Positions 22,596 through 62,393 are shown, counted from the first letter of the stretch. The stretch: DNA of 64,000 bases from Nitrospinota bacterium (GCA_016208975.1 JACQXA010000004.1:1-64000), one strand, 5' to 3'. Program-made: numbers and translations. The notes: generated by a model from the letters alone, not told the origin.

Positions 22596-22611
22596 AGCAA
22601 TCCATGTGCCA
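22596..22611 (-). promoter_or_regulatory. Sigma-54 (-24/-12) promoter of the flagellar operon
   Basis: On the minus strand the sequence TGGCACATGGATTGCT matches the RpoN consensus TGGCAC-N5-TTGC with correct spacing and every conserved base. It lies 64 nt upstream of the flgB ATG. An RpoN-dependent activator is encoded at 57998-59311. Confidence 0.85.
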
Positions 22612-47321: not shown

Positions 47322-48443
47322 TTGATAATCCTTTTCGGGACCAATTACCGGGTGGGGCAGACGGGCCATTTCGCCCATATCGCCTTACAAAGGATGGGGC
47401 ACACCGTAATACCCTTCACCGCCGTTAAAGATGCCCCGGAAGACTGGATAGTCACAGGGCCGGATGTGGACGCGGTGGCCCTTTTCGAGCAAATCGGCGG
47501 AAAGGCCGACGCCTTCTTTATGGTGGAAAGCTCCACAGGCTCCCCGTTCCTGCCCCGCCGCATCGAGGAGCTTTGCATCCCCACCGCCTGCTGGTATTAC
47601 GACAACTATCTCAATTTCCGGTGGAACAAGGAGGTTGTGGCGCTGTTCGATTACGGATTCTTCGCCCAGATGGGAAGGGTAAAGCAGGCGCGCTCCTACG
47701 GGATGGGGCATGTGGACTGGCTCCCATTCGCCGCCGACGAGGTGTTCCACCGCAATTTCCACATGGAGCGGGACATAGACATAGGCTACCTTGGCACCAT
47801 CACGGAACAGAAAAATAAGTACTTCAGCCAGTTTGAAAAGTGCGGCTTGAAAGTGGTGACCAACGAGCGGTTTTACAGTTTCGACGAGATTGGCAAGTTC
47901 TACAGCCGTTGCAAGGTGGTATATAACATCCTGGCCCGGAGGGACTTGAACGTGCGCGCATTCGAGGCCCCCAGCGCCGGGGCGGTGTGCGTAAACCAGG
48001 GTTACATAGACGAAGGCGCCCATCTTATCTTCAAGGAGGGCGAAACCACCATGTACCACCGGTTCGCCGACGCTCCGGAAATTTGCAGGCGCCTGCTTTC
48101 GAACCCCATAGAGCTTGAACGGATGTCCCAAAAGGCCGAAGAACTGGTGCTGACCGGGCACACATACCGCCACCGGATGGAAAAAGTTTTGGAGTCTCTG
48201 GCCCGGGGGGTGTCCAACGGCCGGATGGGCAGGAGAGCCTCTTTCGCCGCTCCGGTGGCCGAGTCGCTCACCTGTGGCCACCGGGATTTTAAGTGGCGGG
48301 ACAGGGCTTACGAAAAATTGGCGGAAGCGTTCCGCCGGGGGCCGCTGGGAAATGTCGTATCATATCTGTTCCGTTACGCGTTTTGGCGGATACGGGAGAA
48401 GCTGGAGAAACTCTGGTGGTCGCTTGGGAAGGCCCCGGTTTAG
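47322..48443 (+). CDS. CgeB-like glycosyltransferase
   Basis: The 373-residue GT-B-like protein has an N-terminal strand MIILFGTNYRVGQTGHFAHI, a middle region ERDIDIGYLGTITEQKNKYF and a donor-site half with RRDLNVRAFEAPSAGAVCVN and GETTMYHRFADAPEICRRLL. These are features of CgeB/DUF3880-type glycosyltransferases that modify surface or spore glycans. It starts with TTG. It leads a three-gene plus-strand set with a sugar epimerase and a GT9 enzyme, so a surface polysaccharide or flagellin glycan is the likely product. Confidence 0.75.
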   Translation: MIILFGTNYRVGQTGHFAHIALQRMGHTVIPFTAVKDAPEDWIVTGPDVDAVALFEQIGGKADAFFMVESSTGSPFLPRRIEELCIPTACWYYDNYLNFRWNKEVVALFDYGFFAQMGRVKQARSYGMGHVDWLPFAADEVFHRNFHMERDIDIGYLGTITEQKNKYFSQFEKCGLKVVTNERFYSFDEIGKFYSRCKVVYNILARRDLNVRAFEAPSAGAVCVNQGYIDEGAHLIFKEGETTMYHRFADAPEICRRLLSNPIELERMSQKAEELVLTGHTYRHRMEKVLESLARGVSNGRMGRRASFAAPVAESLTCGHRDFKWRDRAYEKLAEAFRRGPLGNVVSYLFRYAFWRIREKLEKLWWSLGKAPV

Positions 48444-48476: not shown

Positions 48477-49553
48477 ATGGGAATAGCTATCATCACCGGC
48501 TCCTGTGGCCTTGTGGGGTCGGAGAGCGCCCGGTATTTCGCCCGGGAGGGGTTCAATATAGTCGGGGTGGATAACGATATGCGGCGCTATTTCTTCGGCG
48601 CCGAAGCCAGTACGGACTGGAACCGGGAGCGCCTGGCTGAAGAGCTTTCGGCCCGCTATACCCATGTGAACCTGGATATCCGCGACGGCGACGCGGTGGA
48701 CCGCTTGTTCAGCCAATACGGTACGGACATAAAGCTGGTGATCCATACCGCCGCCCAGCCTTCGCACGACTGGGCCGCCAAGGAGCCTAAAACCGATTTT
48801 GCCGTGAACGCCACGGGAACGCTGAACATGCTGGAGGCCACTAGAACGTTCTGCCCGGACAGCGTGTTCATATTCACCTCTACCAACAAGGTATATGGCG
48901 ACCTGCCCAACAACCTGCCCCTTTTCGAGATGGAGCGGCGGTGGGAGGTGGACCCCTCGCATCCGTTCCACGAGCGGGGCATAGACGAGACCATGAGCAT
49001 AGACCGGAGCAAGCATTCAATCTTCGGCGCCTCCAAAGTGGCGGCGGACGTGATGACGCAGGAATATGGCCGCTATTTCGGGATGAAAACCGGTGTATTC
49101 CGTGGGGGATGCCTCACCGGCCCGGCCCATTCCGGAGCGGAGCTTCACGGGTTTTTGTCATATCTCGTAAAATGCGTGCTGACCGGAAAGAAATACACCA
49201 TATTCGGCTACAAGGGAAAACAGGTGCGGGACAACATCCATAGCGACGACCTGGCGCGGGCGTTCCACCTGTTTTATAAAAATCCCATTCCCGGCGAGGT
49301 TTACAACATGGGGGGAAGCCGGTTCTCCAACTGCTCGGTGCTGGAGGCTTTCGACATCGCGGAGAAGATCACCGGCGAGGCGGCGGTTTACGAGGTGACC
49401 CAGACTAACCGCATCGGCGACCATATATGGTACATAAGCGATATAAGCCGGTTTTGCGGGCATTACCCCGAATTCAGGCTTTCGCACGGGATAGAGATTA
49501 TCATCGGCGAAATTGCGCTGGAGTTCGAGCGAAGGCTCTCCACCGGCAAATAA
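48477..49553 (+). CDS. NAD-dependent epimerase, CDP-paratose 2-epimerase-like
   Basis: The 358-residue extended SDR has the Rossmann motif [34 protein letters not shown], Thr/Ser in [10 protein letters not shown] and the catalytic pair near S-I-F-G-A-S-K ([12 protein letters not shown]), with Phe at the usual Tyr place. [19 protein letters not shown] and [19 protein letters not shown] match the tyvelose epimerase class. The replaced Tyr means the proton donor differs or the alignment is off; the substrate is therefore uncertain. It follows the CgeB-like gene after 33 nt. Confidence 0.78.
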
Positions 49554-49554
49554 C

Positions 49555-50619
49555 ATGGATACGCCCAAGATGAAACTGGATCCGGGCGCGGTACGCCGCA
49601 TTCTGGTCCTGCGTTACCGCTCCATCGGGGACATTATCCTGTCCAACCCTGCGCTGGCTGGTTTGCGCCGCATGTTCCCGGCCGCCAAAATCCACATGGT
49701 GGTGGACGACGTTTTCGAGGATGTGCTTTACGGCAACCCGAACGTGGACAAGATAATTTTGAGCCCCCGCAAACCCTCAGGGCCGAAATGGAAAGCGGAC
49801 ATTGCCATGATAAATAAACTGCGCGCCGCAAAGTATGACCTGGCGGTGGACCTGCATGGTGGCCCGCGAAGCTCATGGTTCACCCTTTTTTCCGGCGCGC
49901 GATGGCGGATAGGCCACGGGTTCCGCTGGCGCAACCGGCTTTGTTACAACATGGCCGTGCCCACGCCGGATTTTGACGACCATACATGGAGAGTGCAATA
50001 CCGGGTGGTGAACGCCTTGGGATCTGCGTGGCCGGAGAAGCCGGAGTTCTTCCTGAATTTCCCGGAGAAGGCTATGGAATCGGCCCGGGCTAAAGTTGGC
50101 GAAACCGGTTTTAATTTCGACATGCCCATTGTCCTGCTTCACCCTGGCGCCAGGATACAGGTGAAACGGTGGCCCGCCGAAAAAATGGGCGCGCTGGCCC
50201 GCTGGCTGGTAGACGAGAAGGGCGCGGCGGTGTTCCTGGCTGGCTCCAAGGCGGACGAAGAAGAAATAAAAAGCATCCGGCGCGCCGCGGGCTACGCCCT
50301 TCCCTATTTCACCAACCTGAACGTGGGCGAACTGGCGGCGCTGATAAAAATGGCCAATTTAATCGTGTGTAACGACTCGGGCCCCATGCACATGGCCGGG
50401 GCGCTGAACACCCCCATCCTGGCCCTGTTCGGCCCGTCCGACCCGAAGATATGGGAGCCGATGGGAGCCGATGTGAAAGCCACAATCACCGGCGCGCCCA
50501 TGGAGTGCATGCCTTGCGACCAGAAGGGTTGCCCCTATGAAGGCGCCCATTGCATGACACGCATTGAGCTGGGCGAAGTTAAACGGGAGTTGGAAAAACT
50601 GCTACCACCCCATGCCTAG
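49555..50619 (+). CDS. Glycosyltransferase family 9 (heptosyltransferase-like)
   Basis: The 354-residue protein shows the GT9 pattern: ILVLRYRSIGDIILSNPALA at the start, LAVDLHGGPRSSWFTLFSGA, IVLLHPGARIQVKRWPAEK, VCNDSGPMHMAGALNTPILA and LFGPSDPKIWEPMG. Family members add heptose or related sugars to lipopolysaccharide core at the cytoplasmic face. A cysteine-rich end (MECMPCDQKGCPYEGAHCM) is also common in WaaF-type enzymes. The ATG at 49555 lies 1 nt after the previous stop. Its own stop is 1 nt from the end of the convergent radical SAM operon. Confidence 0.9.
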   Translation: MDTPKMKLDPGAVRRILVLRYRSIGDIILSNPALAGLRRMFPAAKIHMVVDDVFEDVLYGNPNVDKIILSPRKPSGPKWKADIAMINKLRAAKYDLAVDLHGGPRSSWFTLFSGARWRIGHGFRWRNRLCYNMAVPTPDFDDHTWRVQYRVVNALGSAWPEKPEFFLNFPEKAMESARAKVGETGFNFDMPIVLLHPGARIQVKRWPAEKMGALARWLVDEKGAAVFLAGSKADEEEIKSIRRAAGYALPYFTNLNVGELAALIKMANLIVCNDSGPMHMAGALNTPILALFGPSDPKIWEPMGADVKATITGAPMECMPCDQKGCPYEGAHCMTRIELGEVKRELEKLLPPHA

Positions 50620-50620
50620 G

Positions 50621-51553
50621 TCACGCTTTAAGCCATTCGATAAAATCCCCGAATTCGCCTTTGGGGATAACGTCTATCCCAGCCGGGGAATACCTCCATC
50701 CATAGACCCTGTTTTCTGATACCACATAATCCTCCTGGGTAATCCCCAGGTCGTACCCGCCCACCGGCGGGGTGGGAGCCCATTTATATCCGTACCGCTC
50801 CCAATCGGTCTTCGCCAGCGCCTCCAGGGCTTTCTTCTGGATTGAGGGGTCCATCTTGGCCCGAAGGGTCATGGCGCCCCTGTCTGGAACCAGCAGAGTG
50901 TTGAACAGGGGTATAACGCCATTCTCGCGGGCGAAACAGAGCACGTTCAATATCCCGTTAAAACTGTTATCAAGGTTATGGTCGTCCATCACACAGGATA
51001 CCCCCAGCCGCCGGCTTTTCGCGAATCCTCTGGAAAGCGCCAGCCACAATGCGTAGGGCACATGCCCCCAGGGGGGCATTTCCCTAAACTCGCAGGGGCT
51101 CCGGGTGGCGTATATGGAAATCATCCGCTCTTTATCCAAACTGTCCAGTTTGAACACCAGCGACACATCCAGTTCGAAAAGCTCCTCTATATCCCCGCCG
51201 TCAACAAGAAGCCCGTTAGTGTAAATGACCGTGGCTAAACCGAAGGACCTGGCTTTTCTAAGAATCGGGTAGAGCTTTTTCTTTTTCAGGAAAGGCTCTC
51301 CTGGCCCTTGCAATATTATTGTTCGAACGGGAGTGGAAGATAATTCGGCAAGGGCTGTATGGATGTATCCGGCGTTTTTCTCCGGCGCCACGTCACGGTA
51401 AAATTCCATCGTTCCGCAATAGTGGCAAAGCAGGTTGCACTGCCTCCATATGAAAAGGGTTATCTCCAGCGGGCGGCCAGCGGCGGAGATCTGGGTTTCC
51501 TTATGGATGCCATGCAGTAAGGGCCGCTCCATAGGCATCTCCGCGGTTTTCAT
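50621..51553 (-). CDS. Radical SAM protein, last gene of the seven-gene operon
   Basis: The 310-residue protein has a radical SAM cluster motif CNLLCHYC (Cys39, 43, 46), a SAM-binding GE strand IILQGPGEPF, and later strands IYTNGLLVDG and LVFKLDSLDK. There is no SPASM cysteine cluster and no B12-binding domain. It is closest in form to stand-alone radical SAM enzymes of unknown substrate. Its ATG overlaps the stop of the upstream radical SAM gene by 4 nt, so it is translated with it. Confidence 0.85.
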   Translation of the reverse strand: MKTAEMPMERPLLHGIHKETQISAAGRPLEITLFIWRQCNLLCHYCGTMEFYRDVAPEKNAGYIHTALAELSSTPVRTIILQGPGEPFLKKKKLYPILRKARSFGLATVIYTNGLLVDGGDIEELFELDVSLVFKLDSLDKERMISIYATRSPCEFREMPPWGHVPYALWLALSRGFAKSRRLGVSCVMDDHNLDNSFNGILNVLCFARENGVIPLFNTLLVPDRGAMTLRAKMDPSIQKKALEALAKTDWERYGYKWAPTPPVGGYDLGITQEDYVVSENRVYGWRYSPAGIDVIPKGEFGDFIEWLKA

Positions 51554-52893
51554 GAAAGCCTGAAAGAACCGGAAACCGGCCGGACGATATCGAAAATCTC
51601 GCTCCTCGCCTTGTCTAAATCGCCGAAGGAGAGGTTTTCCAGCGGCACGTTCGTTTCCAGATGGTAGTCCACATACAGCCCGCCTTCACGCCCCGTGGCG
51701 AACTCTTCATGGAAACGTGTGCCGGGCAAAGCGTTGGCGAAACTTACGGATATCAGGTCTGGTTTTATCCGGCCCACTATATCCACGGTTTTTGAGAGGC
51801 TTTCCCTGGTTTCGCCGGGATAGCCCAGCATGATGAAGGCGCCCGCCTCCAGCCCCGCCTTGTGGGCCATGTCGAAGGCTTTTATTACCTGGGCCGGGGT
51901 TATCCCTTTCCCCATACGGTTCAGGATTCCCTCGTCTCCCGATTCCACACCGAACATTATCCGTATAAGCCCCGCGCTTTTCATAGTCTCCAGAAGTTCA
52001 TTGGATACGCAATCCACCCGTGACTCGCATTGCCACTCCACCCCAAGCTGACGCTCCTGAAGAGTTGCGCAAAGGCTCTCGGTGAACTTCCGGTTGGCGG
52101 TGAGGGTGTCATCCACGAAATGGACCATATCAACGCCGTACCGTTCCATGAGTGTTTCTATTTCTCCCGCTACATTTCCGGGGGACCGGTGGCGGAGCTT
52201 GCGTCCGAATATTTCCCGGGAACAGAAGGCGCAACCGAACGGGCAACCTCTGGATGATATGAGGGTGCCCCCGCGCCTGCCGGTTATCTGCTTGAACAGG
52301 GCAAGGTATTTTTCCATGGGCATGAGCCCGCGCGCTGGATATGAGAGGCTGTCCAGGCCGTTTATATAACCCCTGCCGGGGCCGTATGTGACGGCTCCAT
52401 CATCTTGAAGGACCACGACGCCCGGAACGGCTTCCAGCCGCTCGCCATTGTTGATGGCGTTCACGATTTCGCTGAACGTCCTCTCCCCTTCCCCCAACAC
52501 GCCGATGTCGAACAGGCCGGAACCCATAACCTCCATAGCCGCCACGGTAACGTGGGATCCGCCGATGACGAACCAGCCGCCGCTCCAGGTCCTTATACGT
52601 TCCGCCACGCGCCTGGCAAAAGCATAGCTAGGGGTCATGGAGGTGAAGGCGTACATGTCGTAATCGCCAAGACGGTTTATGGATCCCTCCACATCCTCCC
52701 AGCTTTCGTGAAACGACAGGTCGAGATATTCTTTTTTATAATCCCCCTCAAGATTTGCCATTACATAGGCAATGCCCAGCGGCGGCGTGGGAAAATCGGG
52801 ATAGAACTCCACCCTTTCTTTCATCAGCGGCGGAGCTATGAACAGGATTTTTTCAATCCTGCGCGGCCGGGAACGTAGAACGTTACCGGACAT
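51550..52893 (-). CDS. BchE-like radical SAM protein with B12-binding-type N-terminal domain
   Basis: The 447-residue protein has an N-terminal cobalamin-binding-like Rossmann domain (FIAPPLMKERVEFYPDFPTP, GGSHVTVAAMEVM, VLGEGERTF) without the DxHxxG motif, as is common in BchE relatives. The radical SAM motif is RGCPFGCAFC (Cys217, 221, 224). Later elements FVDDTLTANRKF, FGVESGDEGILNRMGKG and MLGYPGETRESL fit the class. Possible chemistry is methylation or ring formation on an unreactive carbon; the substrate is unknown. It overlaps the upstream gene by 11 nt. Confidence 0.88.
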   Translation of the reverse strand: MSGNVLRSRPRRIEKILFIAPPLMKERVEFYPDFPTPPLGIAYVMANLEGDYKKEYLDLSFHESWEDVEGSINRLGDYDMYAFTSMTPSYAFARRVAERIRTWSGGWFVIGGSHVTVAAMEVMGSGLFDIGVLGEGERTFSEIVNAINNGERLEAVPGVVVLQDDGAVTYGPGRGYINGLDSLSYPARGLMPMEKYLALFKQITGRRGGTLISSRGCPFGCAFCSREIFGRKLRHRSPGNVAGEIETLMERYGVDMVHFVDDTLTANRKFTESLCATLQERQLGVEWQCESRVDCVSNELLETMKSAGLIRIMFGVESGDEGILNRMGKGITPAQVIKAFDMAHKAGLEAGAFIMLGYPGETRESLSKTVDIVGRIKPDLISVSFANALPGTRFHEEFATGREGGLYVDYHLETNVPLENLSFGDLDKARSEIFDIVRPVSGSFRLS

Positions 52894-54184
52894 CGTTTAT
52901 CCCTTCCCCGGCGGCCATACCCTGCCCGTGATAAACCCGGTGGTTGCCTCCGTCGAAGAAAGCGTTTATCTGGCCAGGATTTATTCTGGCGGATCGGCGC
53001 AGGTAATATGGGGCGGAATTGTCGAACTCCAGCCCAAGAAGCCGCTGGTTTTCCCATAGGCCGGTGCCTGGCAAGACCCGGAGAAGGGCCACGCGGATGT
53101 CGTCCACCGGCAGGTTTTGAAGATACTCCACCCCCCGCCACACGTCGTCCATGTCGTCACCGGGCAGGCCCAGGATAAGGTCAACATTCACCCGAAAGCC
53201 ATAGTCCCTTAATAGGCGCGCGCCCCGCTCGAATTTTTGCCGGTTCAACCGGCGGTGGATATTTTCGAGCGCAAGAGGATTAACGCTCTGCAACCCCGCC
53301 TGAAACTCTACAAACCCGGCCCGTCTGGCCGCACGGCAGAACTTTTCAGTCACAAGCTCCGCCATTATGTCAGCGGAAAACTCCATACCCGGAGCCCGGT
53401 TTTCTTCAACCATCCCGCACACCTGAGCGGCCCACGGCCATAGGTTGAAGATGGAGTCTATAAGTATCACGTACCGCGTTCCGGCCTGCGCCAAGGCTTT
53501 TACCTCCCCCGCCAAAGTGGCCGGGGATGCGAACCCGAGCCCTTTCATTTTTTTCGGGTAAAAACAGTAGGCGCAACGCTGGGCGCATCCCCGGTAAGTT
53601 TCCATATATGCGTGGCGGTATCTCGAAAGCTCGAACACGCCGGAGGCGTAAGGACCCGGGATGGTTTCGAGGGAAGGCTCCGGCCGGGCGCCGGAAGAAG
53701 CGTTAACGGGTTTTGAGCGGGAGGTTACGCCTGGAACATCTTCCCAGCTTTGCCCAAGAGCGAACCTGTGAAGAAAAGCCGTGAACGGCTTTTCACCCGG
53801 TCCCACTACAACCGCATCCACAGCGGTTTCCGTAAGCAGGTTTGAAAGGTTGTAAGCCTCCGGCCCACCGAGCAGGATGAATATGGATGTGTCCCTTTCT
53901 TTTATCAACCGGGCGGTTTTTACCACCCGCTCCACGTTCCATACATAGCAGGAGAACCCGGCTACCCGGGGGGCTGTGGAAACAACTTTTTGCGCCAGCG
54001 TATCCGGCGTTTCAGGCTCCAGCGCCCATGGTTCGATAATCTGGATTTCCAGCGATGGGTCATGGGATTGGGCATAGGCCTTGAGGTATCCCAAAGCCAA
54101 AGGCGGCGTGAGTGGAGCCTCCACCGATATGGAAGGATCCCGGGTATAGTCGAACCCGCCCGGTTGCGCCAAGGTTACACGCAT
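52883..54184 (-). CDS. BchE-like radical SAM protein with B12-binding-type N-terminal domain
   Basis: The 433-residue protein has an N-terminal Rossmann domain (MRVTLAQPGGFDYTRDPSIS, PLTPPLALGYLKAYA, LLGGPEAYNL, VVVGPGEKPF) and a radical SAM motif YRGCAQRCAYCFYP (Cys200, 204, 207). The DSIFNLW strand, FQAGLQSVNPLALENIHRR and LILGLPGDDMDDVW follow. It differs clearly from the next gene's product although both are of the same class, so they probably act on different steps. The ATG at 54184 leaves a 13-nt gap from the cupin gene; a longer reading would overlap it. Confidence 0.88.
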   Translation of the reverse strand: MRVTLAQPGGFDYTRDPSISVEAPLTPPLALGYLKAYAQSHDPSLEIQIIEPWALEPETPDTLAQKVVSTAPRVAGFSCYVWNVERVVKTARLIKERDTSIFILLGGPEAYNLSNLLTETAVDAVVVGPGEKPFTAFLHRFALGQSWEDVPGVTSRSKPVNASSGARPEPSLETIPGPYASGVFELSRYRHAYMETYRGCAQRCAYCFYPKKMKGLGFASPATLAGEVKALAQAGTRYVILIDSIFNLWPWAAQVCGMVEENRAPGMEFSADIMAELVTEKFCRAARRAGFVEFQAGLQSVNPLALENIHRRLNRQKFERGARLLRDYGFRVNVDLILGLPGDDMDDVWRGVEYLQNLPVDDIRVALLRVLPGTGLWENQRLLGLEFDNSAPYYLRRSARINPGQINAFFDGGNHRVYHGQGMAAGEGINDVR

Positions 54185-54197
54185 GGATGCCGCGCTT

Positions 54198-54578
54198 TCA
54201 TGCCGGAGCCGGTTCACTAAGGAAACTTATGGCCAGTATCTCGCACATGGAGCCGGTGTTGTTCACAAACCGGTGTGGCTCGTTTGCGGGAATGTAAAGC
54301 GCGTCGCCAGCTTCCAGCCGCGTCACGGCTCCGTCCCCGGTAGAAACATCCCCTGCCCCACGCGCGACATAATAAATCTCCGGGCACGGGTGGAAATGGC
54401 TTTCCATACTGCCCCCCGGCGCAACCAATAGCCGCCACATGTTCAGCCCCGCGTCCCCATCGCCAAACACGTTGCACCCAAGGCTTCCACCATGGAACGG
54501 TACCAGATTTATCCGTTCCACGTTCTTTACGGCAACCGTCCTGAGTTTCCGCGCCCCAGCAAATCCGTTATCAGCCAT
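54198..54578 (-). CDS. Small cupin-domain protein
   Basis: The 126-residue protein is a single cupin barrel with metal-binding motifs GSMESHFHPCPEIYYVARG (H-x-H-x3-E) and ALYIPANEPHRFVNN (a His in motif 2). The family includes dioxygenases, isomerases and sugar-binding proteins. Placed between a radical SAM/SPASM and a B12-type radical SAM gene, it may be an isomerase, oxygenase or product-binding protein of the same pathway; which cannot be told from sequence. Confidence 0.85.
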   Translation of the reverse strand: MADNGFAGARKLRTVAVKNVERINLVPFHGGSLGCNVFGDGDAGLNMWRLLVAPGGSMESHFHPCPEIYYVARGAGDVSTGDGAVTRLEAGDALYIPANEPHRFVNNTGSMCEILAISFLSEPAPA

Positions 54579-54585
54579 ATGCCCT

Positions 54586-55965
54586 CTATGCGCCAGCCCC
54601 GGCGGTTATGGCCTTCTCGCGGTTATGATGTTTCTCCTGCGCGATACAAACAGGGTCGCGATCCATGATGTTGCCCGTGGCGTAATGGGACCGGGTGAGA
54701 CACCCTGACCGGCATACCGTTACATACTCGCATTTGCCGCATGCGGGGCTAACATCGTCCAGCGCCCTGAACCGCGCCGATTCCATGGCGCTGGCAAAGG
54801 AGCGGCGTTTTAAATCCAAATCTTCCCATTGGCTGTAAAGATGTGTCAACGACGGGCAGGGAGCTAAAAACCCATCGTTGCTTACACATATGAAGCCATA
54901 ACCAGATGGGCAATGAAAGGGCGCGTCCAGTAGAATGGCCTGGCTTACGATGGGAATGGCCACCGTTATCCTATCGGCGTATTTTTTCCTGATCCCATCC
55001 AGAAGACGCGATGTATCCACAAGGGACTGGTAAGAGTGCGCCAGCCCCCCATTCTCCCTGGCCCTGCCTGCGGGAAGGACGTTTTCGAATTTCACCACCC
55101 GCGCGCCCGCGTCAATTAACGGCTCCATTACGGCCCCGGCCTGGTGGGCGTTGGCCGCCGTTAGCACCACGTTTACCGCAGTGAAAATACCCGCGCCGCG
55201 GCATCTTCTCAATCCGTCCAGAGTCCTTTGATACGCGCCCGGCCCCCGGGAAAGGTCGTGGGCCTCATCCATCCCGTCCAGGCTGGCTATGGCGCTGTCC
55301 ACTTCCAGGGAGGCCAGCCTTTGAACGGTTTTCTCCGCCAGATAAGCTCCGCTGGTGTCCAGAATCACCTTAAGGCCCCGCTCCTTGGCCCGCGCTATAA
55401 ACTCCCAAATGTGGGCGTGTAGCAAGGGCTCGCCGCCGGAAAAGGAAACAACCCTCAGCCCTCCTTCGGCCAGCCCATCAATTATCTTCAAGCCATCCAT
55501 TAGCCCCACATCCTCGCCGCGCTGGATTCCCTCGCCGAAATAGTAACAATGGGGGCATGACATGCCGCACTTGCTGGTGACGGTCCAAATAGCCAGGTTT
55601 GGGCCAGAACCGAAAGGCCTGTGGGCAACGCCGTTCCAGTCTTCGCTGGCGCTCACATCATGCTCCACGGCTTGATATTGTCCGTATAGTTGGAAATAAC
55701 TGCATGCCACCAACTGATGGTCATCCAGCCGGTAGGTTTCCTGTTGCGCGCCATCCCCTACTTTCCACCTGGCATTCACCAAAACGAAGGGCATGCCATC
55801 GGCGGTTTTGAGCCTTGCCCCGCCCGTTACGCCAGGATGCCCTTGAATGGAGCGGGCCAGTTGTTTGCCTAGTCCGGCCATATAGCGGCCACACTCCTCC
55901 AAGGGTACATTGGACCCGTGCCAGTCCAGGCTTATCGAAAAATCCGCAAGCATTAATGCGCTCAC
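54586..55965 (-). CDS. Radical SAM/SPASM-type enzyme with a novel N-terminal domain
   Basis: The 459-residue protein has about 115 N-terminal residues I do not recognise (MLADFSISLDWHGSNVPLEE, FVLVNARWKVGDG, YRLDDHQLVACSYFQLYG). The radical SAM core follows with KCGMSCPHCYYFGEG (Cys133, 137, 140), VVSFSGGEPLLH and VILDTSGAYLAEK. The C-terminus is SPASM-like, with FHCPSGYGFICVSNDGFLAP, CPSLTHLY, CGKCEYVTVCRSGC and a last Cys in DPVCIAQ. SPASM enzymes often modify peptides or small amines. The start is a GTG overlapping the aminotransferase stop by 4 nt, with AAGGAG upstream. Confidence 0.88.
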   Translation of the reverse strand: MSALMLADFSISLDWHGSNVPLEECGRYMAGLGKQLARSIQGHPGVTGGARLKTADGMPFVLVNARWKVGDGAQQETYRLDDHQLVACSYFQLYGQYQAVEHDVSASEDWNGVAHRPFGSGPNLAIWTVTSKCGMSCPHCYYFGEGIQRGEDVGLMDGLKIIDGLAEGGLRVVSFSGGEPLLHAHIWEFIARAKERGLKVILDTSGAYLAEKTVQRLASLEVDSAIASLDGMDEAHDLSRGPGAYQRTLDGLRRCRGAGIFTAVNVVLTAANAHQAGAVMEPLIDAGARVVKFENVLPAGRARENGGLAHSYQSLVDTSRLLDGIRKKYADRITVAIPIVSQAILLDAPFHCPSGYGFICVSNDGFLAPCPSLTHLYSQWEDLDLKRRSFASAMESARFRALDDVSPACGKCEYVTVCRSGCLTRSHYATGNIMDRDPVCIAQEKHHNREKAITAGAGA

Positions 55966-57236
55966 AACTGTAACTCCTTTTTTAGCCTGTCCATCATCTC
56001 GTCTATATCCCCCATATCCAGGATTAATGGAGGGGTAAGGGTGAGGGTGTTGCGGAATATGGTGGCCACGTGCAGGCCGGCGCGCCTGCAGGAGGATACG
56101 AACCGGGTGAGGGCGGAAGTGGACAGACGTTTGGTTTCCCTGTCGGCCACAAACTCCACGCCGATAAGCATACCCGCGCCGCGAATATCCCCCACGGAGT
56201 TGTCGCTCTTTAAAAGGTCACGAAGGGCTTCTATCAGCGCCTTGCCCATGACTGCGGCGTTTTCGTGGAGTTTTTTCCGGCGGGCCACGTCCAAAGTTTT
56301 CACCGCCCGGGCGCAGGCCACCGCGTGGCCTGAGAAAGTGGTCTGCAACACCACGCCCATGGACACGAACTCCGGCGGGCAGGCCGATTCCTTAAAGACG
56401 GCCACGGATAACGGAAACCCGTTGGAGAGGGCTTTGCCCATTATCATGATGTCCGGCTGGACATCTTCCATTTCTGACGCGAAGATGGCTCCACAACGGC
56501 CAATACCGGTTTTCACTTCGTCGATGATGAGGGGAATCCTGAATTCGGCGCAAATGGAGCCGACAGCGGAAAGATAACCCTCGGGAAGCGGTATGCCCTC
56601 CTTGCCCAGAACAGGTTCAATTAAAACCCCTGCCAGCTCATCTTTATCCTTGGCAACCAGTGAACGCAGGGCTGAAACGCATTCCCTCTGGCAGTTTTGA
56701 ACGGTGAGGTTGAATGGGCAACGGTAACAGAATGGGGTGGGCGCGGGAACGGGAATCACTCCCGAAAGAGCCGCCAGCCCGCTGGTTGGGAAACTTATGG
56801 GTAGCAGACCGATAGCCGAACCGTGATAGCACCGGTCCAAAACAAGCACCTTCCGTTTCCCGCCGCTTTTAAGGACAGCCATCTCCAGGGCGTGCTCCAC
56901 AGCCTCGCTCCCGGAAACGCCGAACATAAACTTGTTCAGGTCCCAAGGGGCCAATATCTCTGTAAGACGGCCCATAAGCTCTACCATGGGAAAAGTGGGC
57001 GGGGTGGCGTGTTCCAGCTTCTCCAGCGCCTGAATGGTGGCTTGCGTAACCTCCGGGTGCGCATGGCCCAGGACCATGGCGCCCCAACCGGCGTCCAGGT
57101 CCAGATATTGCCCTCCATCGCAATCGTATAGCCACTTACCGGAGCCCCTCTCGAACACCGGCGGCCATAGTTCAGCCACGTAACCGGGAGATATGCCGTT
57201 GAGATATTCAGCGTAAATAAGCGACATGCGCCCCAT
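55962..57236 (-). CDS. Class III PLP aminotransferase with a four-cysteine insert
   Basis: The 424-residue enzyme has the class III fold: WGAMVLGHAHPEV, SGSEAVEHALEMAV, LIIDEVKTGIGRCG (Asp239 pairing with the pyridine nitrogen), and IMGKALSNGFPL with the PLP Lys268. TTFSGHAVACARAV closes the active site. An insert FCYRCPFNLTVQNCQREC holds four cysteines (170, 173, 182, 186), suited to a metal site. It should transfer an amino group to or from an aldehyde or keto group; the substrate is unknown. The ATG at 57236 overlaps the HIT stop (TGATG). Confidence 0.9.
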   Translation of the reverse strand: MGRMSLIYAEYLNGISPGYVAELWPPVFERGSGKWLYDCDGGQYLDLDAGWGAMVLGHAHPEVTQATIQALEKLEHATPPTFPMVELMGRLTEILAPWDLNKFMFGVSGSEAVEHALEMAVLKSGGKRKVLVLDRCYHGSAIGLLPISFPTSGLAALSGVIPVPAPTPFCYRCPFNLTVQNCQRECVSALRSLVAKDKDELAGVLIEPVLGKEGIPLPEGYLSAVGSICAEFRIPLIIDEVKTGIGRCGAIFASEMEDVQPDIMIMGKALSNGFPLSVAVFKESACPPEFVSMGVVLQTTFSGHAVACARAVKTLDVARRKKLHENAAVMGKALIEALRDLLKSDNSVGDIRGAGMLIGVEFVADRETKRLSTSALTRFVSSCRRAGLHVATIFRNTLTLTPPLILDMGDIDEMMDRLKKELQL

Positions 57237-57703
57237 CAAACCCCGGCGCGGGCGCCACCCATCATCCCGGCGAAAATTACCGTTAGCCGGTCGCGGATTT
57301 CATTCGTCTCCGCTTCGGTAAGCTTTATGGATTTCTGCCGCCATGGCGTGTCCACAAAGGCAGGCTCTATCTCAACAACGTCGCCAGCCTCGTACCGGGG
57401 TATGACATGAACGTGGAAATGAGGGACCTGCTGGCCAGCCACCTTACCCACGTTGATGCCGATGTTGACACCTTTTGCGCCATACTCGGTAAGCGCCCTG
57501 CCCGCGTCCACCACCATGGTCATCACTTTCCTTGCCAGTTCCGGGGCAGACACGAAGGGGTCCTGATGATGTTCCACCGGGGCGACGCATATGTGCCCCC
57601 GGGTGCGAGGAAACTTGTCCAGGAATACCGCCGTCTCCCCGTCGTTATATATTTCCAGCCCTCCGGTTTTGCCTATCACCTCCGAGCAGAACACGCACGC
57701 CAT
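57236..57703 (-). CDS. HIT family protein
   Basis: The 155-residue protein has a possible zinc pair CVFC at residues 3-6, FPRTRGHICVAPVEHHQDPF, and the histidine triad VPHFHVHVIPR (His95, 97, 99). HIT proteins hydrolyse or transfer nucleotide monophosphate groups through a histidyl intermediate. It is the first gene of the operon, so it may serve the pathway (for example on a nucleotide-activated intermediate) or be a bystander housekeeping enzyme. The ATG at 57703 has AAGGAGGGGG upstream. Confidence 0.9.
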   Translation of the reverse strand: MACVFCSEVIGKTGGLEIYNDGETAVFLDKFPRTRGHICVAPVEHHQDPFVSAPELARKVMTMVVDAGRALTEYGAKGVNIGINVGKVAGQQVPHFHVHVIPRYEAGDVVEIEPAFVDTPWRQKSIKLTEAETNEIRDRLTVIFAGMMGGARAGV

Positions 57704-57743
57704 GAGCCCCCTCCTTGCCACCGGTTATTATTTTATTTCTGTT

Positions 57744-57772
57744 ATAATATTACTATACCATTTGAAGGGCAA
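57744..57772 (-). promoter_or_regulatory. Candidate promoter of the radical SAM operon
   Basis: On the minus strand TTGCCC (57767-57772) and TATTAT (57744-57749) are 17 nt apart, 41 nt upstream of the HIT start codon. On the plus strand the same stretch reads TATAAT (57743-57748). Confidence 0.5.
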
Positions 57773-57970
57773 GACTTTTTGCGCGGTGGCTTTTTGGATG
57801 AACCCCGGCGTGATTGAGTCTTTAAGAGGGGGTTAGAAATGTATTACGGAATATGCCGGGCATGTAATCTTTTTAAATTGAGGGGGCGGCCTTTTTATAG
57901 GAAAGGATGACATTCAGAAGCTGTACTTGCGCAAAACCGGAAAGGAATAATAAAGGCCCGTGAGAATTAA

Positions 57971-57998
57971 AGCCTGGGGTGGCCCCGGCTGTTTTTTT
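57971..57998. terminator. Bidirectional terminator next to the sigma-54 activator
   Basis: AGCCTGGGG and CCCCGGCT form a GC-rich hairpin (57971-57990, one bulged T) followed by seven T on the plus strand (57992-57998). On the minus strand the hairpin is followed by TTTAATT. It ends the regulator transcript and would also stop any plus-strand transcript from 57.7-57.97 kb. Confidence 0.6.
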
Positions 57999-59311
57999 CA
58001 GGCCGCCCCCTCTTCCACCAACCCGTTGAGCAGGTTCTTCTTCTTCAGCTTCTCCACCAGCGTGGTCCTGTTCAAACCCAGTAACGCCGCGGCCTTGTTT
58101 TTCACCCATCCGCAACGGTCCAGCGCCGCAAGGATTAGTGTGGTCTCGTATTTGTCCACAGCTTCTTTAAGGTTAATCCCCTCGTCGGGCAGAACGGGCT
58201 GATGGAACGAATCGTTGTTGGCGGGGACATCCAGTGGCTCGTCAAATCCGGCGGCCAGGGCCACGTTGGCTTCGGCGGCCTCTTGAGAAACATCCAGGTT
58301 TTCCCGCGGATCTGAATGCCCAGCGCCGTTCACCGGGGCGATTTGCGCGTCGCTCCGGATGACGGTAACGTTGGAGGCTTGCGCGGCCAATACAGGCTCC
58401 GCTTTTGGGGCGGTTATGATGCCCTGCTCGGCCAGTTCCTCCGGCTCGCCAACCAGCATCATGTCGCGGTAGAGCTGTTCATCCTCTTTGGGTTTTATCT
58501 GCCGGAGCTTGGCGGGCAGGTCGTGCTTCTCCAGCAGGCCTTCCCCTTTCAGCACGATGAGCCGCTCCATCATATGCTCCAGCTCTCGCACGTTGCCGGG
58601 CCAGTTATAACTTTTGAGACACGCCATGGCCTCGGCGCTCACACCGGTCACCATCCTGCTTTTAGTCTTGTTGAAATGGCGCACGAAATGGTTTATCAGC
58701 AGGGTAATGTCGCCGCCCCGGTCCCGCAAGGGGGGCAGTTCTATGGGGATAACGTTCAGCCTGTAATACAGGTCCTCCCGGAACCTTCCCGCCTCTATGG
58801 CTTTCTCCAGGTCTATGTTGGTGGCTGTAATAACCCGGGTATCAACCTCTATGGTCTTGGCCCCGCCCACCCGTTCAAACCGCTTCTCCTGCAAAATCCT
58901 CAGGATCTTCACCTGCAAGGTGGGGCTCATGTCGCCGATCTCGTCCAGGAATATGGCCCCTTTATCCGCCAGCTCGAACTTGCCTATCCTGGTGCGGATG
59001 GCCCCGGTGAACGAGCCTTTCTCATGCCCGAAAAGCTCCGACTCCAACAGCTCTTCCGGTATGGCGCCGCAGTTAACGGTTATCATCGGCTTGTCGCGCC
59101 GCACTGAATTTTCATGTATGGCTTTGGCGATTAGTTCCTTGCCGGTACCGCTCTCACCAAGCACTAAAACGGTGGAATCGTTATCCAGCAGACGGCCCAC
59201 GGTTTTATAAACCGATTTCATAGCCTCGCTTTCTCCCACGAACCGGGAGAAATCCGGAGCGGTCACGCTTTTTATAACCGCCGTCTGGGGCTCTTCCACC
59301 ACCTCTATCAT
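57998..59311 (-). CDS. Sigma-54-dependent activator without a receiver domain (FlrA/FleQ/FlrC type)
   Basis: The 437-residue regulator begins almost directly with the AAA+ domain: Walker [13 protein letters not shown] (about 51-62), the sigma-54 contact loop GSFTGA, Walker [13 protein letters not shown] and [20 protein letters not shown]. Serine replaces the alanine of the usual GAFTGA. A linker of about 110 residues precedes a Fis-type helix-turn-helix ([20 protein letters not shown] with [16 protein letters not shown]). With no N-terminal receiver it may be constitutive or controlled by partner proteins. The ATG at 59311 has GGAG upstream. It is a good candidate to drive the sigma-54 promoter at 22596-22611; no target is proven. 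Confidence 0.93.
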
Positions 59312-59385
59312 GGCTGTCTCCAACTTTCTATCGCTTCTTTCACCGGTTGAGTCATAGGAATGGCGCTCACCGTCAACAATCTGTA

Positions 59386-59407
59386 CAATATTGATACCAA
59401 AATATTG
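59386..59407. promoter_or_regulatory. Inverted repeat CAATATT-N8-AATATTG
   Basis: Perfect 7-bp arms lie between the divergent sigma-54 activator and hpt genes. The stretch also reads as a direct repeat of AATATTGA, 14 nt apart. It is a candidate regulator site. Confidence 0.35.
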
Positions 59408-59430
59408 ACATTAACGACGTTTATAAGAGC

Positions 59431-59958
59431 ATGAAGCATAACGTACTGATTTCAGAGGATAAAATCGCAGAGAAGGTGGAGGAACTTGCCCAAAAGGTAG
59501 CCTTGGAGTTGAAAGGGCAACCAACAATTTTGGTAGGTCTGCTTAGAGGTAGCGTCGTTTTTTTGTCGGATCTCATGCGGCGGCTCTACATACACGGGGT
59601 GTTTCCCGAGGTGGATTTCATGGCGGTTTCCAGTTATAAGGAGTCGCTGGAGTCGTCCGGAATGATAGAGGTGATTCAGGACATGCGCCTGCCGGTGGAG
59701 GGTAAAACCGTTTTGCTGGTGGACGATATCGCCGACACGGGCCTTACCCTCTCGGAGGTGAAAAAGATAATCGAAAAGAAAAACCCGGCCAAACTGCTGA
59801 CCTGCGTCCTGCTGGACAAGCCTTCCCGGCGGAAGACGGATTTGAAACCGGATTTTTCCGCGTTCACTGTGGATGACGTGTTCGTGGTGGGATATGGGCT
59901 GGACGCGGGCGACCGGTTCCGCTATCTCCCCTATCTGGCGGCTTTGGACGAGGAATAG
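59431..59958 (+). CDS. hpt: Hypoxanthine (purine) phosphoribosyltransferase
   Basis: The 175-residue salvage enzyme has the PRPP-binding motif VLLVDDIADTGLTL, an N-terminal LVGLLRGSVVFLSDLMRRL, and a C-terminal FVVGYGLDAGDRFRYLPYLA. It makes IMP or GMP from hypoxanthine or guanine and PRPP. Its 3' end overlaps the convergent comEC gene by 28 nt. Confidence 0.95.
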   Translation: MKHNVLISEDKIAEKVEELAQKVALELKGQPTILVGLLRGSVVFLSDLMRRLYIHGVFPEVDFMAVSSYKESLESSGMIEVIQDMRLPVEGKTVLLVDDIADTGLTLSEVKKIIEKKNPAKLLTCVLLDKPSRRKTDLKPDFSAFTVDDVFVVGYGLDAGDRFRYLPYLAALDEE

Positions 59959-62393
59959 CTCTCGAACCTCATTTTCCGCCCATCGGTTCGCAGAACTATC
60001 TCACCATCCATATCCGTGCGGAACACCCGCATACCAGCCTCCTCCAGCCGCTCCAGGGTTTTTTTGCTGGGGTGGCGGTGCCGGTTCATAAAGCCCACGC
60101 TTATCACGCCGGTTTTCGCCCCCACCGCCTTTAAAAACTCTTTGGAGGTGGAAGTGTCGGAACCGTGATGGGCCAGTTTAATCGCGTCGGCGCGAATGTC
60201 CATGCCGGAGCTAATCAACCAGCGCTCCACTTCCTTGCTTATGTCTCCGGCGAAGAACACCTTTCTGCCACGATACTCCAGGATGAACGCCAGGCAACGG
60301 TCGTTGGATTCCTCGTCAAACGGCAGTGGGCCGGGCGGAGGGCTTAAAACCCTTATGGATGGTCCATCGGGAAAGTCGATAAAATCCCCGGTTTTCAGCG
60401 CCCGGTAAACTCCACCGGCTCTCATTTTCTCCCGTAAAACAACGATGGGTTTGGGAACGTCTTTCTCCAGTCCATTGTCCAGAAACATATCCGCCGGTAC
60501 GCTTTCCAGCAGGCCCGGCATTCCGCCTATGTGGTCGGCGTCGTCATGGGTGGCCAGCATGGCGGTAAGTTTGAGTTTCTGTTCCGCCCAAAGGATGGGC
60601 GCAATTACGCTTCTACCAGGATCGAAAGTTTCAAACCTTGGTCCCGCGTCTATGGCCATGGCGCCGCCGGGCCATGTGACCAGCGCGCAATCCCCCTGCC
60701 CCACGTCCACAAACCTTACGGTTAAGCCCTCCTCCTCCGGCTCCAAATAATGGGTCAGCAAAAGGATCGCCGCAAATCCGGTGGCGGTAACGGCCAACGC
60801 CAGCTTCTTGTAAAAGTTTTTGGGGGCTATCAACAGGATGAGCATGAACAGGTAATAGAATGCCCATGCCAGCGCCGGGGTATGCCCCACATGTTTGTAA
60901 GAGTATGGGAGCGCCGCCGACCATTCGGATATGAACGCCACGAGGCGCGTCAGGAAATCCGTCACGGCCCGCGCCCATTCCGGCCCGCCGAAAGCCCACA
61001 CCATTCCCCACGGGGTGGCAAGCGAAGCCAAAGGAACAACCACCGCGTTGGACATGAAACCATAAAGCGTGACCGTGTTGAAATAATGGGCCACCAGCGG
61101 GGCCGTGCCAAGGGTGGCGGAAAAAGACACGGCAAGGAAAGACCCTAAAAGCGGCGCAAGCCGTAACGCTTTTTGAGCCAGGTTTGCGCCTGCGCCTGGC
61201 TCCCCGCCCGCGAACAAGGGCTTCCACCAGCCTTCCATGAAGGCGGAGATGAAGAACACCGCCATAAAAGATAGTTGGAAACCCACGTCGAACAGCGCCC
61301 AGGGGAATATCAGCAATATGGCCATCAAGGCCAGGGCGAAGGCGTTATAAAACTCCCGCCCTCTGCCGAGGGCCACGGCGACAAGATATGTGTCTATCAT
61401 TATGGCCGAACGGAGCGCCGGAAACTTGAACCCGGTCAGCGCCGCGTACAATGTGGCCGCCAACAGAGCCGCGATGGCGGCGATTTTCACGGGAACGCCC
61501 GCCGAGACCCACGGCTGGCGAGATGGATACATCAACACAAACGCCAATAGCTTGACCGCGAAAAAACAGCTGGCGGCGATAAAGCCTATGTGCAGGCCGG
61601 AAACGGACAATATGTGCGCCGTGCCCGCCCTGGAGAACGCCTGCCGGATTTCCGGCGTTATCAACCCGTCATCCCCAAGGATAAGCGCCATGTTCAAGGC
61701 CGTGGCCAAAGGATCGGCGGATCGCAGGTTGGCCCCCAGTTTCCCCCGCAACCGCTCCAGAGGCCTGCGCCAGTTGGACAGGGTGTCTATCTTTACTATC
61801 CGCGACTGGCTGGAAACGAGGAAATCGCCATCCAGCTCCCGGTCTTTTAAATAAGCGTCATAATCCCAGCCATGGATGTTGCGGAACCCGTGGGGACGCC
61901 GGTATTTTGCGCCGGTGATTAATAACTCGTCGCCCGGCAGAAACGCTCTTGAATCGTCGTTATTGCCTTGCCGCGCATTCCAGCGGAGGAGCCCCTCTGC
62001 CTTGCCGCCGTTCACTGAAATGACCCTGACGATATACCGGACGCCTCTTGGGCGGGTTGAATCCAGTGATAGCACCTCTACAAGCGCGGTGAATTTGCCA
62101 TCAGGCGACTGGGAGCGGATGTTTTCTTCAGGAATGGGGCGGTTATCGTTGGCCATGATGGCGTTAACGCCGCCTAGGAGCGCGATGAGGAAAAGGGCTT
62201 TCAACTCCAGAGGCGCCCGCCACAGAAAGAAAAAGAGAATTGTGGCGGCAAGCGCCAACACAGGACCCTCTACCGCGCCGGACCGGCCAAAAAGGATTCC
62301 GCCGGCGAAGAAAAGGGAGAAAATGAGAGCCGGAGGAAGGATTTCTCCGGCAGGTTGGTTTTTCGCCCCGTTATTTTCCTCCAAACACCCCAA
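59931..62393 (-). CDS. comEC: DNA internalization protein ComEC/Rec2
   Basis: The 820-residue membrane protein has an N-terminal DUF4131-like region, a competence domain with many helices (ILSVSGLHIGFIAASCFFAV, PALRSAIMIDTYLVAVALGR, PWALFDVGFQLSFMAVFFIS), and a C-terminal metallo-beta-lactamase domain (VRFVDVGQGDCALVTW, ATHDDADHIGG, KLAHHGSDTST). It forms the inner-membrane channel for transformation DNA. Three-part architecture and length are normal. The start seems to be TTG. The minor pseudopilins at 2.6-5.5 kb could be relevant to the same uptake system. Confidence 0.94.
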   Translation of the reverse strand: MGCLEENNGAKNQPAGEILPPALIFSLFFAGGILFGRSGAVEGPVLALAATILFFFLWRAPLELKALFLIALLGGVNAIMANDNRPIPEENIRSQSPDGKFTALVEVLSLDSTRPRGVRYIVRVISVNGGKAEGLLRWNARQGNNDDSRAFLPGDELLITGAKYRRPHGFRNIHGWDYDAYLKDRELDGDFLVSSQSRIVKIDTLSNWRRPLERLRGKLGANLRSADPLATALNMALILGDDGLITPEIRQAFSRAGTAHILSVSGLHIGFIAASCFFAVKLLAFVLMYPSRQPWVSAGVPVKIAAIAALLAATLYAALTGFKFPALRSAIMIDTYLVAVALGRGREFYNAFALALMAILLIFPWALFDVGFQLSFMAVFFISAFMEGWWKPLFAGGEPGAGANLAQKALRLAPLLGSFLAVSFSATLGTAPLVAHYFNTVTLYGFMSNAVVVPLASLATPWGMVWAFGGPEWARAVTDFLTRLVAFISEWSAALPYSYKHVGHTPALAWAFYYLFMLILLIAPKNFYKKLALAVTATGFAAILLLTHYLEPEEEGLTVRFVDVGQGDCALVTWPGGAMAIDAGPRFETFDPGRSVIAPILWAEQKLKLTAMLATHDDADHIGGMPGLLESVPADMFLDNGLEKDVPKPIVVLREKMRAGGVYRALKTGDFIDFPDGPSIRVLSPPPGPLPFDEESNDRCLAFILEYRGRKVFFAGDISKEVERWLISSGMDIRADAIKLAHHGSDTSTSKEFLKAVGAKTGVISVGFMNRHRHPSKKTLERLEEAGMRVFRTDMDGEIVLRTDGRKMRFESYSSSKAAR

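Follow-up and report, generated by a model that had tools for sequence, protein, structure and literature searches.

A radical SAM-rich, seven-gene operon in a Nitrospinota bacterium as a candidate oxygen-sensitive tailoring pathway

The window analyzed here, a 64,000-nucleotide stretch of DNA from a Nitrospinota bacterium (GCA_016208975.1 JACQXA010000004.1:1-64000), contains a compact 7.1-kb operon of seven genes that runs on the minus strand from position 57703 down to 50621. Each gene overlaps the next or lies at most 13 nt from it, with junctions of -1, -4, +7, +13, -11, and -4 nt when read 5' to 3' along the operon. In gene order from P7 to P1, followed by the promoter candidate and the convergent neighbors, the features are:

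57236-57703, minus strand: P7, HIT-family protein, 155 aa; first gene, with its ATG after the Shine-Dalgarno sequence AAGGAGG
55962-57236, minus strand: P6, class III (fold type I) PLP enzyme, 424 aa; 1-nt overlap with the HIT gene (TGATG)
54586-55965, minus strand: P5, radical SAM/SPASM protein, 459 aa; 4-nt overlap with P6 (GTGA)
54198-54578, minus strand: P4, small metal-type cupin, 126 aa; 7-nt gap after P5
52883-54184, minus strand: P3, cobalamin-dependent radical SAM enzyme, 433 aa; 13-nt gap after P4
51550-52893, minus strand: P2, cobalamin-domain radical SAM enzyme, 447 aa; 11-nt overlap with P3
50621-51553, minus strand: P1, small divergent radical SAM protein, 310 aa; 4-nt overlap with P2 (ATGA)
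57744-57772, minus strand: sigma-70-like promoter TTGCCC-17-TATTAT upstream of the first gene, 9/12 matches in a consensus scan, alone not significant
47322-48443, opposite strand to the operon: glycosyltransferase, convergent neighbor
48477-49553, opposite strand to the operon: NAD-dependent epimerase/dehydratase, convergent neighbor
49513-50619, opposite strand to the operon: GT9 heptosyltransferase, convergent neighbor

The seven ORFs are all intact and free of internal stops, and the catalytic motifs that were checked are present in all seven proteins. Pfam confirms the domains as HIT, Aminotran_3, Cupin_2, and four Radical_SAM, two of the latter with a B12-binding domain. The intact ORFs, overlaps, and short gaps bear out an initial annotation of this DNA, which had described the seven genes as one coupled unit; the figure of 11 nt that it gave for the P3/P2 junction is correct, the junction being an overlap. 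The ATG of P7 at 57703 lies ~40 nt downstream of the second hexamer of the sigma-70-like site. No sigma-54 promoter match was found upstream of the HIT gene, and no Rfam riboswitch match was obtained for the operon. The sole exact sigma-54 promoter match in the window, the consensus TGGCACATGGATTGCT at 22596-22611 on the minus strand, is located just upstream of a minus-strand flagellar gene block. Because the GC content of the operon is that of its surroundings, and its GC3 (0.62-0.69) is only slightly below that of most neighbors (0.67-0.77), there is no strong sign of a recent foreign origin.

P3 contains both a B12-binding and a Radical_SAM domain above the Pfam cut-offs, with the CX3CX2C radical SAM motif present as CAQRCAYC. 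Its best sequence matches in the PDB are TokK and CysS, and it falls nearest to the KedN5/TokK/CysS group, with a score against the BchE model (TIGR02026) of 31.4 bits versus a cut-off of 481. Of the two enzymes that the initial annotation called BchE-like, the label thus holds for P2 and fails for P3, whereas its enzyme classes are otherwise confirmed by Pfam. A SCYVWN stretch common to P3, TokK, and CysS aligns Trp82 of P3 with TokK Trp76 and CysS Trp75, and a tryptophan at this position is invariant in 34 family members. In the solved structures, these TokK and CysS residues sit under the cobalt of cobalamin (PMC12846815, PMC13331322). An AlphaFold2 model of P3 (pLDDT 83) can be placed onto both CysS and TokK, with a Foldseek TM score of 0.79 to CysS. 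Given that the cobalamin-assembly protein CobS is encoded in the genome, the cofactor would plausibly be available. At the level of enzyme class, the evidence supports P3 as a cobalamin-dependent C-methylase, predicted to transfer a methyl group to an unactivated carbon.

The P3 model stops after the radical SAM domain, at the point where the C-terminal domain of CysS begins, and the C-terminal substrate-channel domain is absent from the 433-residue protein. In CysS (~630 aa), this domain (residues 433-630) forms part of the lining of the substrate channel and makes contact with the pantetheine tail (PMC12846815). Since P3 lacks the region that contacts pantetheine in CysS, it may act on a substrate without pantetheine, or it may work together with a partner.

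None of the four radical SAM proteins reaches an NCBIfam cut-off, and all are far below. P2 (motif CPFGCAFC) resembles HpnJ, ApyD, and BchE at about a fifth to a third of the respective cut-offs, with 144.7 bits against the BchE model TIGR02026 (cut-off 481) and 160 bits against the model of the RiPP enzyme ApyD (cut-off 750), its best match. Its nearest solved relative is AprD4, with 83 bits over residues 182-431. P5 carries its radical SAM cysteines (C133, C137, and C140) in CGMSCPHC and has a complete SPASM pattern (C352...C370, C409-X2-C-X5-C-X3-C422, C440). It is AhbD/NirJ/PqqE-like at scores below the cut-offs (AhbD, 131 bits; NirJ2, 125 bits), and its nearest solved relatives are SkfB, BlsE, and PqqE, with viperin among the weak matches. 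For the N-terminal region of P5 (residues 1-122), no convincing match was found in any fetched locus, and a single-sequence model (pLDDT 42) is too low in confidence to place its fold. P1, with the motif CNLLCHYC and a Pfam Radical_SAM score of 33 bits, lacks auxiliary-cluster cysteines and has no PDB match at E<=0.1. Its sole other match at E<=1e-13 in a search of 385 genomes has 27% identity (genome G057). Relatives of P1 lie in a fatty-acid/aryl-polyene-like cluster in G057 and in a polysaccharide cluster in G013, neither of which resembles the operon. In G057, a SPASM radical SAM protein (L232:8485-9987) appears, as read from the ORFs, to be fused to a C-terminal region looking like a hot-dog dehydratase; the fusion sits in a ketosynthase/ketoreductase/acyltransferase cluster resembling an aryl-polyene locus.

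The remaining three proteins are assigned with clearer Pfam scores to broad families. P6 (Aminotran_3, 277 bits) has its PLP lysine in MIMGKA, a DEVKTGIGR motif, and an insert with the cysteine cluster CX2CX8CX3C, and it scores a moderate 198 bits against the daptide aminotransferase model (cut-off 450). Its nearest solved relatives are 2,2-dialkylglycine decarboxylase, aminotransferases, and amino-acid racemases. The assignment to class III PLP enzymes therefore stands, whereas the single transamination step that had been expected of it is only one option beside the reactions of its racemase and decarboxylase relatives. P4 (Cupin_2, 65.3 bits) shows the metal-type motifs ESHFHPCPEIYYVARG ... 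YIPANEPHRFVNN and weak PDB matches to the cupins DddK, RemF, and TM1459. P7 (HIT, 65.8 bits) has an HxHxH motif, HFHVHV, and its nearest solved relatives are HIT family/Hint-like proteins. A defense system was considered and set aside, as PADLOC returned only generic radical SAM and HIT likeness.

On present sampling, sequence searches indicate that the operon is a lineage-restricted orphan. The whole set is absent from 23 same-phylum genomes, from a domain-wide sample of up to 385 genomes, and from 80 P3-bearing loci. The 23 genomes related at the level of family, order, class, or phylum contain no orthologs of P5, P3, P1, or P6; no homolog of P7 was found at E<=1e-15 in 18 relatives, no orthologs of P1 or P6 in domain-wide samples (145 to 385 genomes), and no match to P6 at E<=1e-72 in 384 other genomes. 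An exact-word scan for P5 across 84,980 species genomes, which reaches close relatives only, returned none. Among viral contigs, one P6 scan gave nothing and other scans gave only distant matches. The list of relatives holds no second genome of the window's genus. The 80 P3-family loci came from a profile scan based on one short pattern and 250 candidate stretches; at 26-36% identity, they are spread over Planctomycetota, Nitrospirota, Coriobacteriia, Spirochaetes, Desulfobacterales, and others, and in none of them do the other cluster genes occur in a recognizable arrangement. One P3-plus-aminotransferase pair (L033) was rejected as a chance neighborhood, the aminotransferase being BioA-like by reading and the surroundings unrelated.

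The flanking genes have a different distribution: the sigma-54 regulator, hpt, comEC, and accA are present in several relatives, partly syntenic, without the operon. The order of sigma-54 activator, hpt, and comEC (window 57998-62393; the activator has no receiver domain by Pfam) is kept in several relatives in which the seven-gene set is missing downstream of the activator, so that this site looks variable. The initial annotation had proposed examining whether the genes co-occur, and had itself counted a lack of joint conservation against its pathway; in relatives, the set is indeed not kept together. Since all seven genes are intact and coupled in translation, their absence elsewhere shows lineage restriction and does not disprove a pathway.

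In Nitrospirae and Coriobacteriia, short (~425-450 aa) TokK/CysS-like genes immediately follow the gene for a radical SAM partner of 230-300 aa (L091:7091-9230, L092:2313-4488, L101:7173-9291, L106:1213-3328, and L103:9084-11212). The same pair is present at the Coriobacteriia loci L095 (where the partner frame is not settled), L111, L115, L122, L130, L131, L132, L134, and L137. CX3CX2C is retained by the partner in Nitrospirae and at L103; in the remaining Coriobacteriia, the motif has disappeared from the partner, which is nevertheless still homologous. This suggests that the two genes encode a conserved enzyme/pseudo-enzyme pair.

The genome as a whole is rich in this enzyme superfamily, with 59 radical SAM matches in 2.97 Mb and, besides the operon, at least three loci dense in radical SAM genes. 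Hence, four radical SAM genes out of seven, although unusual, are less so than they would be in an average genome; the density is notable here without being extraordinary. One such locus (L251, G000:C1:244500-263500) has five SPASM-like radical SAM genes in ~15 kb, some with unplaced N-terminal regions, adjoining a glycosyltransferase-like gene and a small kinase-like gene. Another (L252, G000:C2:157000-176500) has SPASM and cobalamin-type radical SAM genes with a cytidylyltransferase/PfkB fusion, a SIS-domain protein (heptose-type), and a methyltransferase gene, and is possibly an unusual LPS sugar pathway. In a third (L253, G000:C4:1277500-1297400), five radical SAM genes with CX3CX2C, each of which resembles the cobalamin-domain P2, are scattered among lipid A acyltransferase-like genes, GT9 genes, and a gene for a DUF362 protein. 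In a relative, two cobalamin-domain and one SPASM-type radical SAM genes lie inside a polysaccharide cluster (L233).

Taken as a unit, the operon may encode a dedicated tailoring pathway, sensitive to oxygen, in which an existing metabolite is turned into a small compound that is C-methylated and bears an amine; to this reading, we assign a probability of roughly 0.45. P3 would use methylcobalamin to methylate an unactivated carbon, a step for which the enzyme class of P3 gives support. Further radical steps could fall to P2 and P5, and possibly also to P1, for example dehydration, epimerization, or the oxidation of an alcohol that yields an aldehyde or ketone. P6 might then aminate the new carbonyl, or alternatively decarboxylate or racemize; P4 could isomerize or cyclize an intermediate, and P7 could cleave a nucleotide conjugate. 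For every step other than the P3 methylation, the order is deduced from enzyme class. The unit contains no scaffold synthase, carrier protein, precursor peptide, exporter, resistance gene, or regulatory gene. With tailoring enzymes and no scaffold synthase, carrier, or precursor, it would have to act on a metabolite made elsewhere, and this same gene content leaves product and destination unconstrained. Tentatively, and with a chance clearly below one half, the most likely single class of substrate would be of sugar or nucleotide type, because P2 is nearest to AprD4, P5 matches BlsE and viperin (weakly), and HIT proteins act on nucleotide conjugates.

In favor of the tailoring pathway, we counted the translational coupling, the intact ORFs and motifs, the P3 tryptophan together with the CysS/TokK-based model, CobS, the nearest solved relatives of P2 (AprD4), P5 (BlsE), and P6 (class III PLP enzymes), and the lack of a precursor-like small ORF upstream or in the gaps. 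Against it, we counted the missing scaffold, exporter, resistance, and regulatory genes, the distance of the radical SAM proteins from the NCBIfam cut-offs, and the lack of a conserved occurrence elsewhere. The operon is a radical SAM-rich biosynthetic operon, and its product is not predictable from the genes, as the initial annotation also held. The several C-H activation steps that it suggested are plausible. A more far-reaching reading, which we consider doubtful, is that an undescribed class of metabolite is built under anoxia by four successive radical SAM steps, among them cobalamin-dependent C-methylation by a methylase without the C-terminal domain, with PLP, cupin, and HIT chemistry in addition, and only in one sparsely sampled lineage.

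The glycan genes on the other side of the operon count against the tailoring of a small metabolite and suggest another fate. P1 ends two bases from the convergent GT9 gene, and the products, together with the adjacent glycosyltransferase, epimerase, and GT9 enzyme, could place an unusual methylated or aminated sugar on lipopolysaccharide or capsule. Such surface-glycan tailoring is consistent with the identity of all three convergent neighbors, with the heptose, lipid A, or GT9 genes around the radical SAM genes of L252 and L253 in the same genome, and with the radical SAM trio inside the polysaccharide cluster of the relative. However, the neighboring glycan genes are on the opposite strand and outside the operon, the unit itself has no glycosyltransferase, flippase, or sugar nucleotidyltransferase, and P6 belongs to class III, whereas surface-glycan sugar aminotransferases are usually of the DegT type. 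We regard this fate as somewhat unlikely.

A ribosomal peptide modified by the SPASM and cobalamin-type radical SAM enzymes and aminated by the class III enzyme, as in daptides, would fit the frequent action of SPASM enzymes on peptides, the moderate match of P6 to the daptide aminotransferase model, and ApyD as the best model match of P2. Neither of the two models reaches its cut-off, however, and the unit has neither a peptidase nor a transporter. The leader (57721-57998) and the gaps contain no precursor-like ORF, the only candidates being ORFs of 26 and 23 aa without likeness, although a precursor could still be unlinked, and Pfam finds no PqqD/RRE domain. With neither a linked precursor nor an RRE match in Pfam, a RiPP pathway seems unlikely, and the peptide-derived product that the initial annotation had put forward receives no positive support.

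An anaerobic cofactor or tetrapyrrole side pathway would accommodate the closeness of P5 to AhbD/NirJ-type enzymes and of P2 to BchE/HpnJ. Yet, these scores reach roughly one quarter to one third of the respective cut-offs, and the operon has no tetrapyrrole enzyme. As the set is missing from all 23 same-phylum genomes searched, an essential cofactor role would be hard to reconcile with its distribution, and we consider this reading very unlikely. Least probable of all is a decaying or recently acquired set without coherent function, which the absence from relatives and from any other genome and the slightly low GC3 would allow, but against which the seven intact coupled ORFs, intact motifs, and surroundings-like GC indicate selection for function.

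No paper on this gene combination was found in the open-access literature, most subscription papers lying outside the search, and no radical SAM protein reaches a family cut-off; both results are in line with the earlier statement that no described pathway with this set is known. Although the chemistry looks promising, no conserved family is available for study. Pathways of anaerobic radical SAM enzymes have been little explored as a source of chemistry, and structures have been solved for only a few cobalamin-dependent members. Here, a compact and expressible unit combines a TokK/CysS-type methylase lacking the C-terminal domain with a PLP enzyme, a cupin, and three further radical SAM enzymes. 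A new product would be directly accessible through the operon; should the product instead be an unusual sugar, the operon could still offer a compact route to carbon-methylated amino sugars.

Among known systems, the likeness of P5 to the cytosylglucuronate decarboxylase BlsE (67 bits, cut-off 400) and of P1 to viperin (NF038283, 40.7 bits, cut-off 180) is weak and lies in the radical SAM core; BlsE and viperin act on nucleotide or nucleotide-sugar substrates. P2 shares with BchE, HpnJ, and ApyD the architecture of a cobalamin-binding and a radical SAM domain, at 145-160 bits, but leaves their cut-offs of 481-750 bits unmet and has no tetrapyrrole, hopanoid, or RiPP genes alongside. With AprD4, the radical SAM diol dehydratase of apramycin biosynthesis, P2 compares at 94.3 bits (model NF033070, cut-off 500), in an operon without aminoglycoside scaffold genes or a partner reductase. 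The aminoglycoside and aminocyclitol clusters for gentamicin and pactamycin combine a cobalamin radical SAM enzyme with class III aminotransferases; the operon shares with them the enzyme classes, C-methylating cobalamin radical SAM enzyme and class III PLP enzyme, but lacks their cyclitol/sugar scaffold enzymes, glycosyltransferases, and resistance genes. Finally, P3 differs from TokK, CysS, and KedN5 in sequence, with ~20% identity in the structural alignment and 97 bits against the KedN5 model (cut-off 700), yet it shares with them CX3CX2C, the N-terminal cobalamin-binding domain, the SCYVWN tryptophan under the cobalt, and the fold.
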